From positions 57,542,192 to 57,606,191 of the forward strand of contig OX031061.1 of assembly GCA_943736015.1 (NCBI GenBank): a stretch of DNA of 64,000 bases. The letters are read 5' to 3'. Below the pieces are notes generated by a model, which had not been told where the DNA came from, did not search any database, and was given only the letters and a program-made list of their open reading frames with translations. Of this stretch, positions 12,254 to 59,295 are shown piece after piece. This DNA is from Tridacna crocea. Taxonomy: Eukaryota; Mollusca; Bivalvia; Cardiida; Cardiidae. The number at the start of each line of letters is the position of its first letter. The stretch's first letter is position 1. Both the position numbers and the translations under genes were made by a program.

Positions 12254-12496
12254 ACTAAACAGGATTGTGTGGTAGAGGCTTAAGTCTGCCTCCATCCAGC
12301 AGCAATATTTTAGACTTGTTTAAATTTGAAACATTTTTATATGACAAATCACAAAATGTATTGCGATTCATCTTTGATAGAAAATACTGTTTTAAAAGGA
12401 AAAAAAAAAGCTGGTCACCAGCATTTTCTCCTTTTCCCATGATGTCTTCATCTTCTTCAGGGTCATGAATGCATGCAGCAACTTGCCACAAGGTTA
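12254..12496 (-). mobile_element. M1 MITE, diverged
   Basis: A stray M1 end (GGATTGTGTGGTAGAGGC) precedes a B arm beginning at GCAGCAATATTTTAGACTTG. The left stem is replaced by an A-rich stretch, and CTGGTCACCAGC marks the centre. It ends in AAGGTTAA shared with the next copy. Confidence 0.7.
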
Positions 12497-18780: not shown

Positions 18781-18956
18781 TTTGGCCATAACTGTGCCCA
18801 ACAGATTTTAATGGTAACCTATCCCAGGCTGTAAATGTTACATTGGTTCCCCTTTCGATAATTTTAATTTAAAGGAAATACAGATATATCATAAAATATC
18901 AAAATTTTGGCATGACATACAAGTAGAATGATAATGCCAGAGCTCAAACAATACTT

Positions 18957-19282
18957 CATTATCTCTAGCTAAATGGCATTCTACAAATACATATCTATCT
19001 AATTCAGGCATTCTTGGTACAGAACCAGACTACTTTTCTATGCGACAACCGATAGTTTGTATTTCAAACTTAAATGTTTACTCAATAAAACACAACCTGG
19101 TGCAATTCATTCAGCTAAGAACAGCTAGCATGTAACCTATGCACTCCCCTTTTATCAAAACAGCCCCTACAGGCTTGGGTAATAGCTTCAGTACAGGCCC
19201 TACTTTTCCCTAGTATATGGGGTTGGTGATGCATTATAGCAGACAGGTCAAATCTTGGAAGAATGCGACATGAGCAGACAAC
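18957..19282 (-). mobile_element. T-family element with 10-bp target duplication
   Basis: AACAATACTT at 18947-18956 and AACAATACCT at 19283-19292 flank it. It starts CATTATCTCTAGCTAAATGGC and carries TTTTCTATGCGACAACCG and TGGTGCAATTCATTCAGCTA, as in the other copies. The part with the micro-ORF has diverged beyond recognition. It ends ACATGAGCAGACAAC. Confidence 0.82.
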
Positions 19283-19292
19283 AACAATACCT

Positions 19293-26328: not shown

Positions 26329-26941
26329 ATAGCTTGGAACAGGCAATAACTCTATAGCCAGTTTTTTTTTAGTTTTTCATATGTACAAAACTTTAATCTA
26401 TATTCTATCCGTTAAAGCAACTGTAGTTGTTTTTGTGGCCAGTTTTGATCAACTTGCAGATCAAGCTGCACAAAACCTGCAGTCTGATCTTTATCTTCAC
26501 TGTCTGCTTTGCTAAATCTTTACAGACAAAAGCAACCATGAAATTGAAATTACCAGAAATACTCAACTATAAGACAAATTTTTTTTGCCACAATTTTGAG
26601 CTTGAAGTTGGGAGGGTGTCTAATAAGTACATAATCCAAGGACTTAAAAAAACAAAGATAGATGTTGTGCAGTATTTCCTGGAACATGAACAATTCAACT
26701 CTTTTGTGTTTCAGTCTTAATAAAAATTATTAAAAGTGACCTCTTCAGTGCTTTGCATATTGTTGAAACATAATTTTCATGATGATAATGTTAAAAAATT
26801 AATCTAAATCACTGTTGGACAAGAAGCAAATACAAATGGAAATGATCTATTATAAGATCTACATAATAAGGCCTATCAAAAAATATTCAGTGTTTAGGGT
26901 CTCAAGACCCTACCTAGAAAATACCCTTTTTATGCTACAGC
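26329..26941. other. H scrap and a weak ORF, otherwise nothing
   Basis: GATCAAGCTGCACAAAACC and GCAGTCTGATCTTTATC near 26460-26500 are H-hairpin halves. A frame ending at 26720 after an acceptor-like ATCTTTACAG (26514-26523) reads MKLKLPEILNYKTNFFCHNF onward. It is AT-rich and I would not call it a gene. Confidence 0.35.
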
Positions 26942-27772
26942 TTGGTCGCCAGTACTGGATCGTCCCCAGTAGCGGATCAATTTTACAAAACAAGCACTCT
27001 GTTTCTCTTACCGTTCAAGTTAAAAATTATTAAACTAAATTTTCATTATCTTACATCATTTGCACATTCAAATATATTTTACTTGGTTTTATTGTTGACC
27101 TAGTTATTTTTCTGTCGTGCATTTAAAGTATACATGCCTTGTTTACAAACAGAGCCTCTTTTTGGATAACCGAAAGCGGAAGAAGCGTGTACTGTGAATT
27201 ATTGCAGAATTTTTTCCCCAAAAAACTATTGTCATTCGAAAGATATGTTATCGCAGATTATTTTGACAGAAACAGATGAATGTTACCTGATAGGTAACAA
27301 TAATATAGGCACTTTTTTACGCCAAGGTGAAGTCACCAGTAGCGAACCACATTGAGACAGATAAAAAATTGGCGGATGAAGTCGTAATGCTGCGGGGGTG
27401 GTCTCAAACATACTTTTAATTAAATTGCCTGTCAAAACCTGGTTTTCTGTATGATCAAAGCTTATTTATGCTGACCTGTCTCAACTTTTAATGCTGAACA
27501 GGTTCCTGTCAAGATTTTGGTTTTATGCATACTCCATGCATCCCCATATCACGTGATTCTGTACTGGAGAAATTGGTTCGTTATTGGGGTACCCCTAGCA
27601 GAATTTAAATATCTCAAAATTCCTCTTTACAAAAGATTTTGGGATTGATAGTATGCTTTATCATTGCAGGAAAGCTAGCGCTGTTTGATGAATTTAATGT
27701 TAATTACTGATTATTAGTCTCTGTGTATTATTTTCTTCTTCATACCGGAAGCGATTCCGTACTGGCGACCAA
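26942..27772. mobile_element. Candidate 831-bp DNA transposon with ~30-bp TIRs
   Basis: TTGGTCGCCAGTACTGGATC at the left end is matched in inverted form by CGATTCCGTACTGGCGACCAA at the right end. Matching continues imperfectly for about 30 bp. An internal ACCAGTAGCGAACCA (near 27333) echoes the terminus. There is no transposase frame and no clear target duplication. Confidence 0.5.
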
Positions 27773-27996
27773 ATAGTGTGATTGAAAATAAGCACCTGTT
27801 GGGTCCAATTTTGGTACACGGTCCATTTCAAATGTTTCTGGGGAAAAAATTTCCTCCTTACACTACCTATAGCATGTTGGACCAAAACCCTAAACACAAG
27901 TATTTTTTGTTCAGTCTTAACATGTCCATGTTTTTTTGTTCAATTCAAAGTTACCATTTATGAAATTCATTTAATTCCAGTAGCAAGAAGTAGGTC

Positions 27997-32849: not shown

Positions 32850-32950
32850 GCTGGTACGCCATTATTCAGCTATGATCAGCAGCTCAGAGAATTCTGGGGC
32901 TAAAACCGGCCTGACTTTTCCTCAAACGTATTGATAAAAACCATTTTCTG
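32850..32950 (-). mobile_element. T-family fragment
   Basis: ATTCAGCTATGATCAGCAGC, CTGGGGCTAAAACCGGCCTGA and CCTCAAACGTATTGATAAAA match the middle of T, including most of the micro-ORF. Both ends are missing. Confidence 0.75.
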
Positions 32951-33193
32951 ATAACTGATTTGATGACATGATTGGTATCAGGCATCACGGAAATGCATTA
33001 AGCCTCTTTTGTCAGAGCATAGCAGCTTTAATAAATGTGACCCATCATGCAAAAAGGGACCATCTGGGAACTCTGTACATCAATTAGATGAAAACAGATC
33101 AACGACAGTGCTGGTCAATCTCAGTTAATAATTAAAAAAATGATTGTACGGTAAGATAGAATGACCACTTTTCATACAGAAAATATCATAAAA

Positions 33194-33258
33194 GCGAAAA
33201 GTGTCCACCCTGGTCAGACTGCGCATCCGCGCAGTCTGACCAGGTCGACACTTTTCGC
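33194..33258. repeat. Strong hairpin, GTCAGACTGCGC type
   Basis: GCGAAAAGTGTCCACCCTGG pairs with CCAGG-TCGACACTTTTCGC around CAGACTGCGCATCCGCGCAG. Similar hairpins lie at 51588 and 55075. The short frame at 33161 is a by-product. Confidence 0.8.
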
Positions 33259-33575
33259 AGTTCCCAGAAGGTCCCTTTCTGCAGGACGTGTCACATTATT
33301 ATGCAACGTTCAGCTGTATTTTCGTATGCATGCATATAGATGTAAATGAGGCTGGATTTTGTGCGATCTGGTTGAAGTGTTATCTAGAATTAATAAAGCA
33401 AAATATCGCATAATATGCAAATTTATTTTGATTTCTGGCAAACGTGTTTCTTGTTTGTAAATGTAAAATGTCATGCTATTTTTGGAACAAGTCCCATAGG
33501 AATAGGTTGGGTAAATAATTTGCTACGCCAGGCGATAAAAAAATGCACTCGCACAAAGTCAAAACATTAGCTGGG

Positions 33576-33877
33576 CGTTTTCTGCGCATGTCATATTCTT
33601 CGAAGATTCCTCGTGTCTTACATGACGCATCACTCTCCCCGATTTCGGGGAGACTGTAATAATACGCGCTACAAAGTAGCAATGGAGAAAATGGCTTTTA
33701 TCAATACGTTTGAGGAAAAATCAGGCGTACTTTAGCACCAGATTTCTCTAAACTGCTGATCATAGCTGAGTGAATTGTAATGGTTGTCGCGTAGAAATAT
33801 GGTCCGGTCCTGTGTACCCAGGATGCCCAAATTAGATAGATGAGTATTTGGAGAATGCTATCTAGCGGGAGATAATG
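33576..33877 (+). mobile_element. T-family element, 302 bp, 10-bp target duplication
   Basis: ATTAGCTGGG (33566-33575) and ATTAGCAGGG (33878-33887) flank it. Ends CGTTTTCTGCGC and GCGGGAGATAATG form a short imperfect inverted repeat. TACGCGCTACAAAGTAGC lies just before an ATG at 33682 that opens a 17-residue frame ending in TAG at 33735. No transposase is encoded. Confidence 0.87.
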
Positions 33878-33904
33878 ATTAGCAGGGGACCAATTTGACG
33901 TGAC

Positions 33905-35505: not shown

Positions 35506-35758
35506 TGCAACACGCGAAAAGATGCATTCGGATATTTGCATAAAGTGTCGTTCCGGATTAGCCTGCGCAGTCCGCGCAGGCTAATCCGAGACGGCACTTT
35601 ACGACTACATTAGATTTTGTGCTATAGTAGACTTGCGTAAAACAGAAAATCACATAAAATCGGAAAGTGTCGTTTCGGATTAGCCTGTGCGGACTGCACA
35701 CGCTAATCTGAGACGACACTTTACGCAAATGTCCGAATGACCCTTTTCACGTGTTGCA
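35506..35758. mobile_element. D-family element, two hairpins in one unit
   Basis: Ends TGCAACACGCGAAAAG and CTTTTCACGTGTTGCA are inverted repeats. Inside, two separate hairpins occur: GGATTAGCCTGCGCAG/CTGCGCGGAC-type at about 35545-35605 and AAAGTGTCGTTTCGGATTAG/CTAATCTGAGACGACACTTT at about 35664-35724. There is no coding capacity. I associate this hairpin with freshwater and marine bivalve repeats from memory. Confidence 0.85.
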
Positions 35759-36187: not shown

Positions 36188-36413
36188 TTAACTCTTTACC
36201 AAACGACAAAATTTTGGACTGGTCCAAATAGAAAGCAGACGACAAAATAAGTGTAACTATCAAAATGAAATTTTGTACCCAGGAGGGTGGAAAATATTGT
36301 GGGAAAAGGAGAAAATGCTGGTAACCAGCATTTTCTCCTTTTCCCACAATATTTTCAAAAGGCTTTTACCTCAGCAGGGCTGTAAAAACCCGGGATTGTT
36401 TGGTAAATGATTA
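36188..36413 (-). mobile_element. M1 MITE, full length
   Basis: TTAACTCTTTACCAAACGAC to GATTGTTTGGTAAATGATTAG. The palindrome centre has A where minus-oriented copies usually have T. Confidence 0.9.
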
Positions 36414-36910: not shown

Positions 36911-37493
36911 CTAACTCTTTACCAACCCACCCTGGGTTTTATTGACCTCGAGAACGTTGTCTGCGCATGTCATATTTTTCGAAGATTCGACCAGTCTGCT
37001 ATGACGCATCACTCCCGCCATTTTTGGGGGAATTGTAGTAATACGCGCTATAAAGTAGCAATGGAGAAATTGGCGTTTATCAAAACGATTGAGGAGAAAT
37101 CGGGCCTGTTTTAGGTCCAGATTTCTCTAAACTGCTGATCATAGCTGGATGAATCGCACCAGTTAGCGTTTTTTTTTAGTTTGAAATTCGAAGTAACAGT
37201 TGTCGCGTAGAAAAATATTCCGGTTCTGTACCCAGGATGCCCAAATTAAATAGATGTGTATTTGTCGAATGCCATCTAGCGGGAGATAATGCCCAGGGAA
37301 GAAACACTTTCCGAAAGAAAACACAATACAAATGAGAGAAGGGAGGTTACCGAAATTTCTTCACTTTCCAACAATGTTTTCCACCCATAACTTGTAATCA
37401 AGTATTTGAGTTTCCCTACGGTAAGTTTCAGGTGTGAAAAATGCCCAAATTTGGACAAGTCAGAAATATAATTTACATCTTGTAAAGCGTTAA
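36911..37493 (+). mobile_element. Diverged M1 MITE split by a T element
   Basis: CTAACTCTTTACCAACCCACC lies at 36911-36954. The remainder (CTTTCCAACAATGTTTTCCAC, CCCAAATTTGGACAAGTCAG, CTTGTAAAGCGTTAA) lies after the T insertion, from about 37292. Confidence 0.7.
36955..37291 (+). mobile_element. T-family element inside an M1
   Basis: It starts CGTTGTCTGCGCATGTC and ends CTAGCGGGAGATAATG. CCTCGAGAA and CCCAGGGAA may be a diverged target duplication. A TATAAAG lies about 10 bases before the ATG at 37061, whose 17-residue frame ends at 37114. Confidence 0.87.
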
Positions 37494-37894: not shown

Positions 37895-38107
37895 TAACCT
37901 TTATCCTGCTTATTGCGACTTGCTGACCTTTTGCGGACAGCGTAGATCAAGATCAGACTGCACAGAACGTGCAGTCTGATCTTGGATCTACACTGTCCGA
38001 TATGGAGATCTTTTTCTTTTACAAAATCCATTTGAAATAGTATCATTTGGGTGTTTACTATTGGCTTGAAAAGTTTCATTTAATTTATTCAGCAGGAGAA
38101 GTGTTAA
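37895..38107 (-). mobile_element. H-family MITE, complete, TTAA ends
   Basis: TTAACCTTTATCCTGC to CAGGAGAAGTGTTAA. The hairpin AGATCAAGATCAGACTGCAC/GTGCAGTCTGATCTTGGATC is almost perfect. This is the best copy for defining the family. Confidence 0.88.
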
Positions 38108-38120
38108 GGGCAAAATATTT

Positions 38121-38188
38121 CATTATCTCCCGCTAGATGGCATTCTATAAATACTCATCTTCGAAGAATATGACATGCGCAGACAACG
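38121..38188 (-). mobile_element. T-family miniature, 68 bp, perfect 10-bp duplication
   Basis: CAAAATATTT is repeated exactly at 38111-38120 and 38189-38198. Between them are about 40 bp of one T end (CATTATCTCCCGCTAGATGG) fused to about 28 bp of the other (GACATGCGCAGACAACG). Confidence 0.9.
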
Positions 38189-38302: not shown

Positions 38303-38512
38303 TGAACACTTTACCGAACAGCAAAAGTATGAACTTGTCCACACCGAATCACGTGTATCTCTAATGGTTGTGGTTGTCTTTGATTTCGTAGAAAACATTG
38401 CGGGAAAAGGAGAAAATGCTGGTTACCAGCATTTTCTCCTTTTCCCACAATGTTTTCAAAAGCTTCTCTCCTCGAGGCCGTTAAAACTCGAGTTATTGTG
38501 GTAAAGGGTTAA
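38303..38512 (-). mobile_element. M1 MITE, B arm diverged
   Basis: GAACACTTTACCGAACAGC to TTGTGGTAAAGGGTTAA. The palindrome is perfect except for GCGGG. Confidence 0.85.
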
Positions 38513-56475: not shown

Positions 56476-56519
56476 ATTTCAAAACTAGACTTCCATTGTG
56501 GGATAAGGGTCGGAATAAT

Positions 56520-56860
56520 CATTATCTCCTGCAAGATGGCATTCTACAAATACACATCTATCTAATCCTGGGTAAAGAACCGGACTACTTTTCTACGCGA
56601 CAACCGTTACTTTAAAATTCAGAGTAAAATAAACGTTTGCTCAATAAAACGCTACCTGGTGCGATTCATTCAGCTATGATCAGCAGGTTAGAGAAATCTG
56701 GAGCTAAAACAGGCCTGATTTCTCCTCAAACGTATTGATGAAAGCCATTTTCTCCATTGCTACTTTAGAGAGCGTATTATTACAATCCCCCAATATTGGG
56801 GGGAGTGATGTGTCATAAAACATAGGTCGAACTGCAAGAACATGGCATGCGCAAACAACG
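56520..56860 (-). mobile_element. T-family element, 341 bp, 10-bp target duplication
   Basis: TCGGAATAAT (56510-56519) and TCAGAATCAT (56861-56870) flank it. It starts CATTATCTCCTGCAAGATGG and ends ATGCGCAAACAACG. On the minus strand the micro-ORF is 56757-56704, ending in TAG. Confidence 0.88.
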
Positions 56861-58952: not shown

Positions 58953-59295
58953 GTTCTCTGTGCATGTCATATTCTTCGAAGATACGACCTGTCTTCTATG
59001 ACGCATCACTCCCCCCATTTTGGGGGATTGTAGTAATACGCTATAAAATAGGCACGGAATAAATGGCTTTTATCAATACGTTTGAGGAGAAAGTAGGCCT
59101 GTTTTAGCTCCAGATTTCTCTAAACTGCTGATCATAGCTGAATGAATTGCACCAGGTATCGTTTTTTTGAGTAAACATTTATTTTAGTGTGAAATTCAAA
59201 GTAACGTTAGTCGAGTAGAAAAGTAGTCCGGTTCTGTAGCCAGAATGCCCAAATTAGATGTGTATTTCTTGAATGCCATCTAGCGGGAAATAATG
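58953..59295 (+). mobile_element. T-family element, duplication unclear
   Basis: TTCTCTGTGCATGTCATATTC to GCGGGAAATAATG. The first ATG of the micro-ORF is mutated (GGAATAAATGG), and the rest of the frame to TAG is kept. The flanks do not match clearly. Confidence 0.85.

Follow-up and report, generated by a model that had tools for sequence, protein, structure and literature searches.

Ds/Ac-like derivatives undergo recurrent internal deletions in which both ends are kept. Mutator-like elements (MULEs) typically generate target duplications of 9–11 bp, as against the 2–8 bp of most other eukaryotic superfamilies, and long terminal inverted repeats are a MULE trait, though absent from some MULEs. 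According to the available excerpts of a bivalve survey, MITEs account for a sizeable share of bivalve genomes, and every mollusc analysed contains MULEs (PMC10294476). Repeats can also disperse regulatory sequence, as the available part of a rodent study reports for mouse B2 elements, which carry and spread CTCF sites and in which a single base change raised binding (PMC5880236). Excerpts of an annelid study report the CTCF motif as the commonest one in the open chromatin of Dimorphilus (PMC7854359). According to the available sections of a review, the mechanism by which domains form in invertebrates lacks direct evidence, and the presence of spiralian CTCF at domain borders rests on a single squid study (PMC10658181).

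Here we describe T, a repeat family of which seven pieces, amounting to ~1.8 kb, lie within a 64-kb window (the whole stretch of DNA that was analysed, C6:57542192-57606191) of a genome surveyed over 1.05 Gb in 31 contigs. T is very probably a family of ~350-bp non-autonomous cut-and-paste DNA transposons, that is, MITEs, which depend on an external transposase, probably one of the Mutator type, and whose micro-ORF is present by chance. It is a new family of MITEs, of a known type; exact-letter queries of the open-licence PMC literature matched nothing and no title among those listed points to T, and no Rfam family was found across the window at gathering scores. The seven copies or pieces listed in the original prediction are all present (Table 1), the one placed at 32850 corresponding to the fragment that begins at 32862. 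The four 10-bp duplications it had named were also found, with 10/10, 9/10, 9/10 and 8/10 matching positions at 38111, 33566, 18947 and 56510, respectively; the value at 18947 holds if the copy ends at 19282, which is our own reading, and falls to 4/10 if the end is set at 19283.

Table 1 Coordinates of T copies and other features within the 64-kb window.
Feature	Position	Strand	Remarks
T copy	18957..19282	-	subfamily with a different middle, without micro-ORF; CTCF-type core mutated
T fragment	32862..32953	-	middle part, without ends
T copy	33576..33877	+	302 bp; frame-bearing subfamily; ~50-bp internal deletion relative to full copies
Duplication of the 33576 copy	33566-33575 / 33878-33887		9/10 matching
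Micro-ORF of the 33576 copy	33682..33735	+	54 nt, MEKMAFINTFEEKSGVL then stop; interpreted as neutral chance frame
T copy	36955..37291	+	frame intact (MEKLAFIKTIEEKSGLF then stop); duplication none seen (4/10)
CTCF-type 13-mer in the 36955 copy	37270-37282	-	
T mini copy	38121..38188	-	68 bp, two ends alone; duplication at 38111 exact, 10/10
CTCF-type 13-mer in the 38121 mini copy	38130-38142	+	
T copy	56520..56860	-	frame intact (MEKMAFINTFEEKSGLF then stop); duplication at 56510 8/10
T copy	58953..59295	+	start lost, codon 3 a stop; duplication none seen (3/10)
CTCF-type 13-mer in the 58953 copy	59274-59286	-	
GGAGAAAATGCTGGTTACCAGCATTTTCTCC hairpins	36308-36338, 38409-38439		23 more, e.g. 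3514, 5241, 22119, 48898, 63388
GATTAGCCTG...CAGGCTAATC hairpins	35556-35586, 35678-35708		by eye also ~33200-33258, 37945-38000

Two groups of palindromic hairpins accompany these features in the window. The near-perfect hairpin GGAGAAAATGCTGGTTACCAGCATTTTCTCC and its variants occur 25 times in the 64 kb, and it was also seen inside T copy L021 and beside CTCF exons (L148). A second group, GATTAGCCTG...CAGGCTAATC, which has other stems too, often adjoins the common GACACTTT motif. Elsewhere in the assembly, contig C31 carries a COX1 gene at 26516-27850 with three in-frame TGA codons, which fits an animal mitochondrion.

Full T copies, whose modal length is ~350 bp, start with CGTTGTCTGCGCATGTCATATTCT and finish with TGCCATCTAGCGGGAGATAATG, and their inverted ends are perfect over ~8 bp (CRTTRTCT), followed by weak similarity as judged by eye. 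The exact right-end 22-mer has 6,321 matches in the genome and the exact left-end 24-mer 5,492, while the reversed controls have 0. The sampled copies come from the initial 16.1 Mb of contig C1: 90 were obtained with the exact right-end 22-mer as seed (30 loci and 60 regions) and 40 with the exact left-end 24-mer, these 40 having no exact right end listed in their vicinity. Window copies were added. Because seeding relied on exact ends, young copies are over-represented in these samples; loci L115 and L116 seem to be a single locus that was duplicated. Duplications were scored in 90 copies, taken from the two samples, whose ends could both be located and whose flanks were long enough: 67 have a target duplication of 9–12 bp, compared with ~0.9 of 90 when flanks were shuffled between copies. 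The duplication measures 10 bp in 51 copies (at most one mismatch being allowed), 9 bp in 15 and 12 bp in one, and is lacking in 23. The earlier description of T as a repeat family with 9–10 bp duplications and very short ends is upheld, and the ends, duplications and copy number together give T the signature of a DNA transposon and not of a SINE. T is shorter than ~600 bp and non-coding, with inverted ends, a duplication of fixed length and thousands of exact ends, as is characteristic of MITEs.

The 68-bp mini copy at 38121 does not stand alone. Among the 90 right-seeded copies, six measure 50–75 bp, and both near-end sequences lie 5–35 bp apart at 243 places in the genome (control 0). Among the first 38 of the 100 places listed out of these 243, all on low-numbered contigs, 31 distinct interiors were counted, point changes included, the commonest occurring 3 times. 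The many different junctions therefore indicate recurrent internal deletion of T, and the few shared interiors suggest that some elements of 60–70 bp are themselves mobile, segmental duplication being the alternative. As mini copies made of the ends only recur, ~30 bp per end may suffice for T movement. In a separate subfamily (L020, L021 and the window copy at 18957-19282), the two flanks agree with those of other copies but the middle ~110 bp look unrelated by eye, as would follow from an exchange of the interior. Some longer copies, namely L016 (914 bp), L017 (411 bp) and L035 (787 bp), contain foreign insertions, which in L035 include a long inverted repeat.

We propose that a transposase from another source, probably of Mutator type, would recognise ~30 bp at each T end and leave a 10-bp, sometimes 9-bp, duplication upon insertion. 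Internal deletions, down to copies of ~50–75 bp, would arise in gap repair after excision. We infer both the class of the transposase and the sufficiency of the short ends for movement. As a by-product, the right end with the CTCF-type core described below would be carried along, the spread of T becoming a spread of CTCF-like sequence to which binding of CTCF is hypothetical.

The exact 54-nt frame noted earlier in three window copies is confirmed as intact in those at 33576, 36955 and 56520, and a complete alignable frame is absent from the window copies at 18957 and 32850. Where a TATAAAG-like box was said to lie ahead of its ATG, TATAAAG itself is read only in the copy at 36955; that at 33576 reads TACAAAG and that at 56520 CTCTAAAG. 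A survey of the frame covered 136 copies (90 right-seeded, 40 left-seeded and 6 from the window), the last 450 bp being taken from right-seeded copies. An alignable region was present in 93; the frame is open in at least one of the other 43, the long copy L016. The micro-ORF is intact in 23 of the 136 copies, and in 8 of the 61 full-length right-seeded ones. By subfamily, 36 of the 136 belong to the frame-bearing class, 31 carry T as the initial base of codon 2 (TAG in most of them) or a TGA at codon 14, 23 have a 4-bp insertion and three are unclassed. Since breaks are common to two large subfamilies, T must have kept multiplying without the frame.

These results bear on two explanations that differ from ours. 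That the TATAAAG box drives transcription of a micro-ORF which is functional or goes back to a host gene's first exon is very improbable. Such a role would agree with the intact frame in three window copies, with the slight excess of intact frames over simulation within the frame-bearing class (20/36 against 15.5, P 0.05) and with the retention of TATAAAG in the genome consensus of T, though the box is altered in two of the three intact window copies. The low proportion of intact copies overall and the breaks shared by large subfamilies speak against it, as does the pattern of substitution: in 39 copies (the frame-bearing class and 3 others), nonsynonymous changes number 107 where the base spectrum predicts 108.5, synonymous changes 47 against 40.8 and stop-affecting changes, slightly rarer than expected, 8 against 12.7, with 48, 52 and 62 substitutions at codon positions 1, 2 and 3. 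The rate of change in the micro-ORF (7.4%) lies between those of its upstream (8.0%) and downstream (5.7%) flanks, and 17 open codons after an ATG have a chance of ~44% ((61/64)^17). TATA-driven transcription usually starts 25–30 nt downstream of the box; because the box here ends just 5 nt upstream of the ATG, a transcript driven by it would begin past the ATG. Conservation of the micro-ORF was rejected on the 23/136 intact copies, the shared subfamily breaks and the nonsynonymous changes at neutral expectation, and the suggestion that it is kept, and perhaps translated, behind a promoter found no support. We read the micro-ORF as a chance frame of one subfamily, decaying neutrally. A host exon is a conceivable origin of the middle part of T. 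As for the transposase, the length of the T duplication, 9–10 bp, points to the Mutator superfamily, in agreement with the original remark that such a length is typical of Mutator-type elements, and the genome encodes MULE transposases (61 matches). At the 17 of these 61 loci that were scanned (L039-L047, L171-L178), no transposase gene was found between T ends, eight of the 17 having been scanned with 1.5-kb flanks, so that T ends farther out may have escaped notice. The best T-end score was at most 26 (20–26) at 16 of the 17 loci, compared with 18–30 in shuffled sequence and ~36–72 for real left ends. At locus L174, a MULE that starts with GGGGACAAAACCCC repeats is inserted within an older T copy (~684-971 onwards). 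The lack of a MULE with T ends at these 17 loci, together with ends that are short and degenerate, would suit a superfamily other than Mutator which likewise gives 9–10 bp duplications. T does not have long terminal inverted repeats, its ends being perfect over ~8 bp. We nevertheless consider another superfamily unlikely, given that duplications of 9–11 bp are typical of Mutator-like elements and that the genome holds MULEs, of which one recurs as many near-identical frames. This is the multicopy MULE of L047 (C6:57409700-57415700), which has its own ~180-bp inverted repeats and a 515-residue open frame found at 15 of the 61 matches; the scores of the 15 copies are nearly equal, which suggests recent activity. 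Counting against the MITE explanation itself are the 23 of 90 copies without a duplication, an inverted repeat short for a MULE, the small excess of intact frames and the absence of a T-ended transposase gene at the scanned loci.

On the opposite strand, the T right end reads CCGCTAGATGGCA, a CTCF-type core which we take to fit the CTCF consensus at 12 of 13 favoured positions, position 3 being G and not the favoured A. The degenerate core CCRSYAGRKGGCR, widened at position 3 to take in the base T, occurs at 12,267 places in the genome and its reversed pattern at 231. Among the 50 places that head the list for CCRSYAGRKGGCR, 48 fall within T, made up of 27 exact T ends, 3 in other T copies (L110, L113, L027) and 18 of 20 that were inspected, one of these 18 right ends belonging to a mini copy and the non-T exceptions being L151 and L170. 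Extrapolated from 3.7 Mb of one contig, more than 11,000 of the CCRSYAGRKGGCR places genome-wide would lie in T. The strict pattern CCASYAGRKGGC, which T matches only when mutated, has 1,853 places against 230 for its reverse. Among the first 100 listed of these 1,853 matches, 54 read CCACTAGATGGC, and 7 of the 8 CCACTAGATGGC places with known context are T (L154, L158, L162, L167, L139, L141, L144), L151 being the other. All three CTCF-type 13-mers of the window lie within T copies; in the copy at 56520 the core is mutated to CTGCAAGATGGCA. On the places sampled, T is the main source of putative near-consensus CTCF sequence in this genome. At the reversed-control rate, the chance of the pattern occurring in a 350-bp element is ~1 in 10,000, a figure that overstates the surprise because the motif was picked after seeing the sequence.

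No convincing signal of selection on the CTCF-like core emerged. The exact core is kept in 47 of 100 anchored T copies, with a CCRSYAGRKGGCR match in 54, and a control 13-mer is intact in 48 of 100; these counts, like those for the strict pattern, come from the 100 places at the head of each list (of 7,553, 3,391 and 1,853), on low-numbered contigs. The non-CpG change rate is 0.041 in the core and 0.061 in the control (P 0.037), a weak difference that is open to subfamily variants. No special conservation of the core was seen in 51 copies, comprising 25 right-seeded ones whose left end is exact as well and 26 of the 40 left-seeded ones, 14 left-seeded loci having been dropped as truncated, mini or outside 300–400 bp.

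The host encodes a CTCF orthologue at C10:7008544-7009263, with 52% identity to the human fingers and CTCF as its best PDB match (E 9.6e-81). Its recognition helices VELSKLKRH and PDTYKLKRH align to human VEVSKLKRH and RDTYKLKRH, and later fingers differ more. The T right end might be a working CTCF site spread by T, and the CTCF landscape of the host might be partly T-derived, a reading that would supplement the MITE explanation and not replace it. We regard this as possible but rather doubtful. It would be consistent with the excess of degenerate and strict matches over their reversed patterns, with the concentration of these matches in T both genome-wide and in the window, with the presence of the orthologue and with the prominence of the CTCF motif in annelid open chromatin, as excerpted (PMC7854359). 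Against these stand the G at position 3, the decay of the core at about the pace of the control 13-mer, its unremarkable conservation in the 51 copies and the post hoc choice of motif; moreover, the motif lies within terminal bases that are probably needed for transposition, so that its presence is explicable without CTCF. There is an even chance that the right-end motif is bound by some other host factor, for example one of YY1 type, or by the transposase alone. A YY1-type factor recognises ATGGC, which the core overlaps, and the motif is present in mini copies, as a need in transposition would have it, although the search pattern for these copies itself required the motif. The match to what we take to be the CTCF consensus, however, spans 12 of 13 favoured positions and reaches far beyond a YY1 core. 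It seems improbable that a Mutator-type MITE deposited some ten thousand CTCF-type sites, nearly all the near-consensus ones of the genome, that host CTCF would bind many of them and that loops and boundaries would be partly set by T. Ageing of T ends may even improve such candidate sites, because CpG decay converts CCGCTAG to the canonical CCACTAG.

If T ends are bound, most consensus CTCF sites of an invertebrate genome would come from a DNA transposon and not from a retroelement, and the family would amount to a natural experiment on whether new CTCF sites reshape chromatin folding. If they are unbound, T would be one more abundant MITE, and the majority of hits in a scan of this genome for CTCF motifs would be transposon ends.

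Among described systems, T resembles the non-autonomous Mutator-like elements (MULE-type MITEs), which are likewise short, non-coding and abundant, with 9–10 bp duplications and inverted ends. It differs from them in a perfect inverted repeat of only ~8 bp and in the lack of a T-ended MULE at the 17 of 61 loci. Its internal deletions are like those of Ds/Ac-like derivatives, although the superfamily differs and the mechanism we propose for T is a deduced one. Among the titles listed from the open-licence PMC literature, none points to a DNA-transposon carrier of CTCF sites in a mollusc, and the bivalve MITEs of the survey mentioned above are, in its available excerpts, left unclassified, with CTCF not discussed (PMC10294476). 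The rodent SINE B2 is similar in being a repeat with a CTCF-type motif in most copies, which one base modulates; in contrast to B2, as the available part of that study presents it, T is a DNA transposon, belongs to a different phylum and has the motif within a terminal repeat, and the binding established for B2 by ChIP is for T a prediction (PMC5880236).
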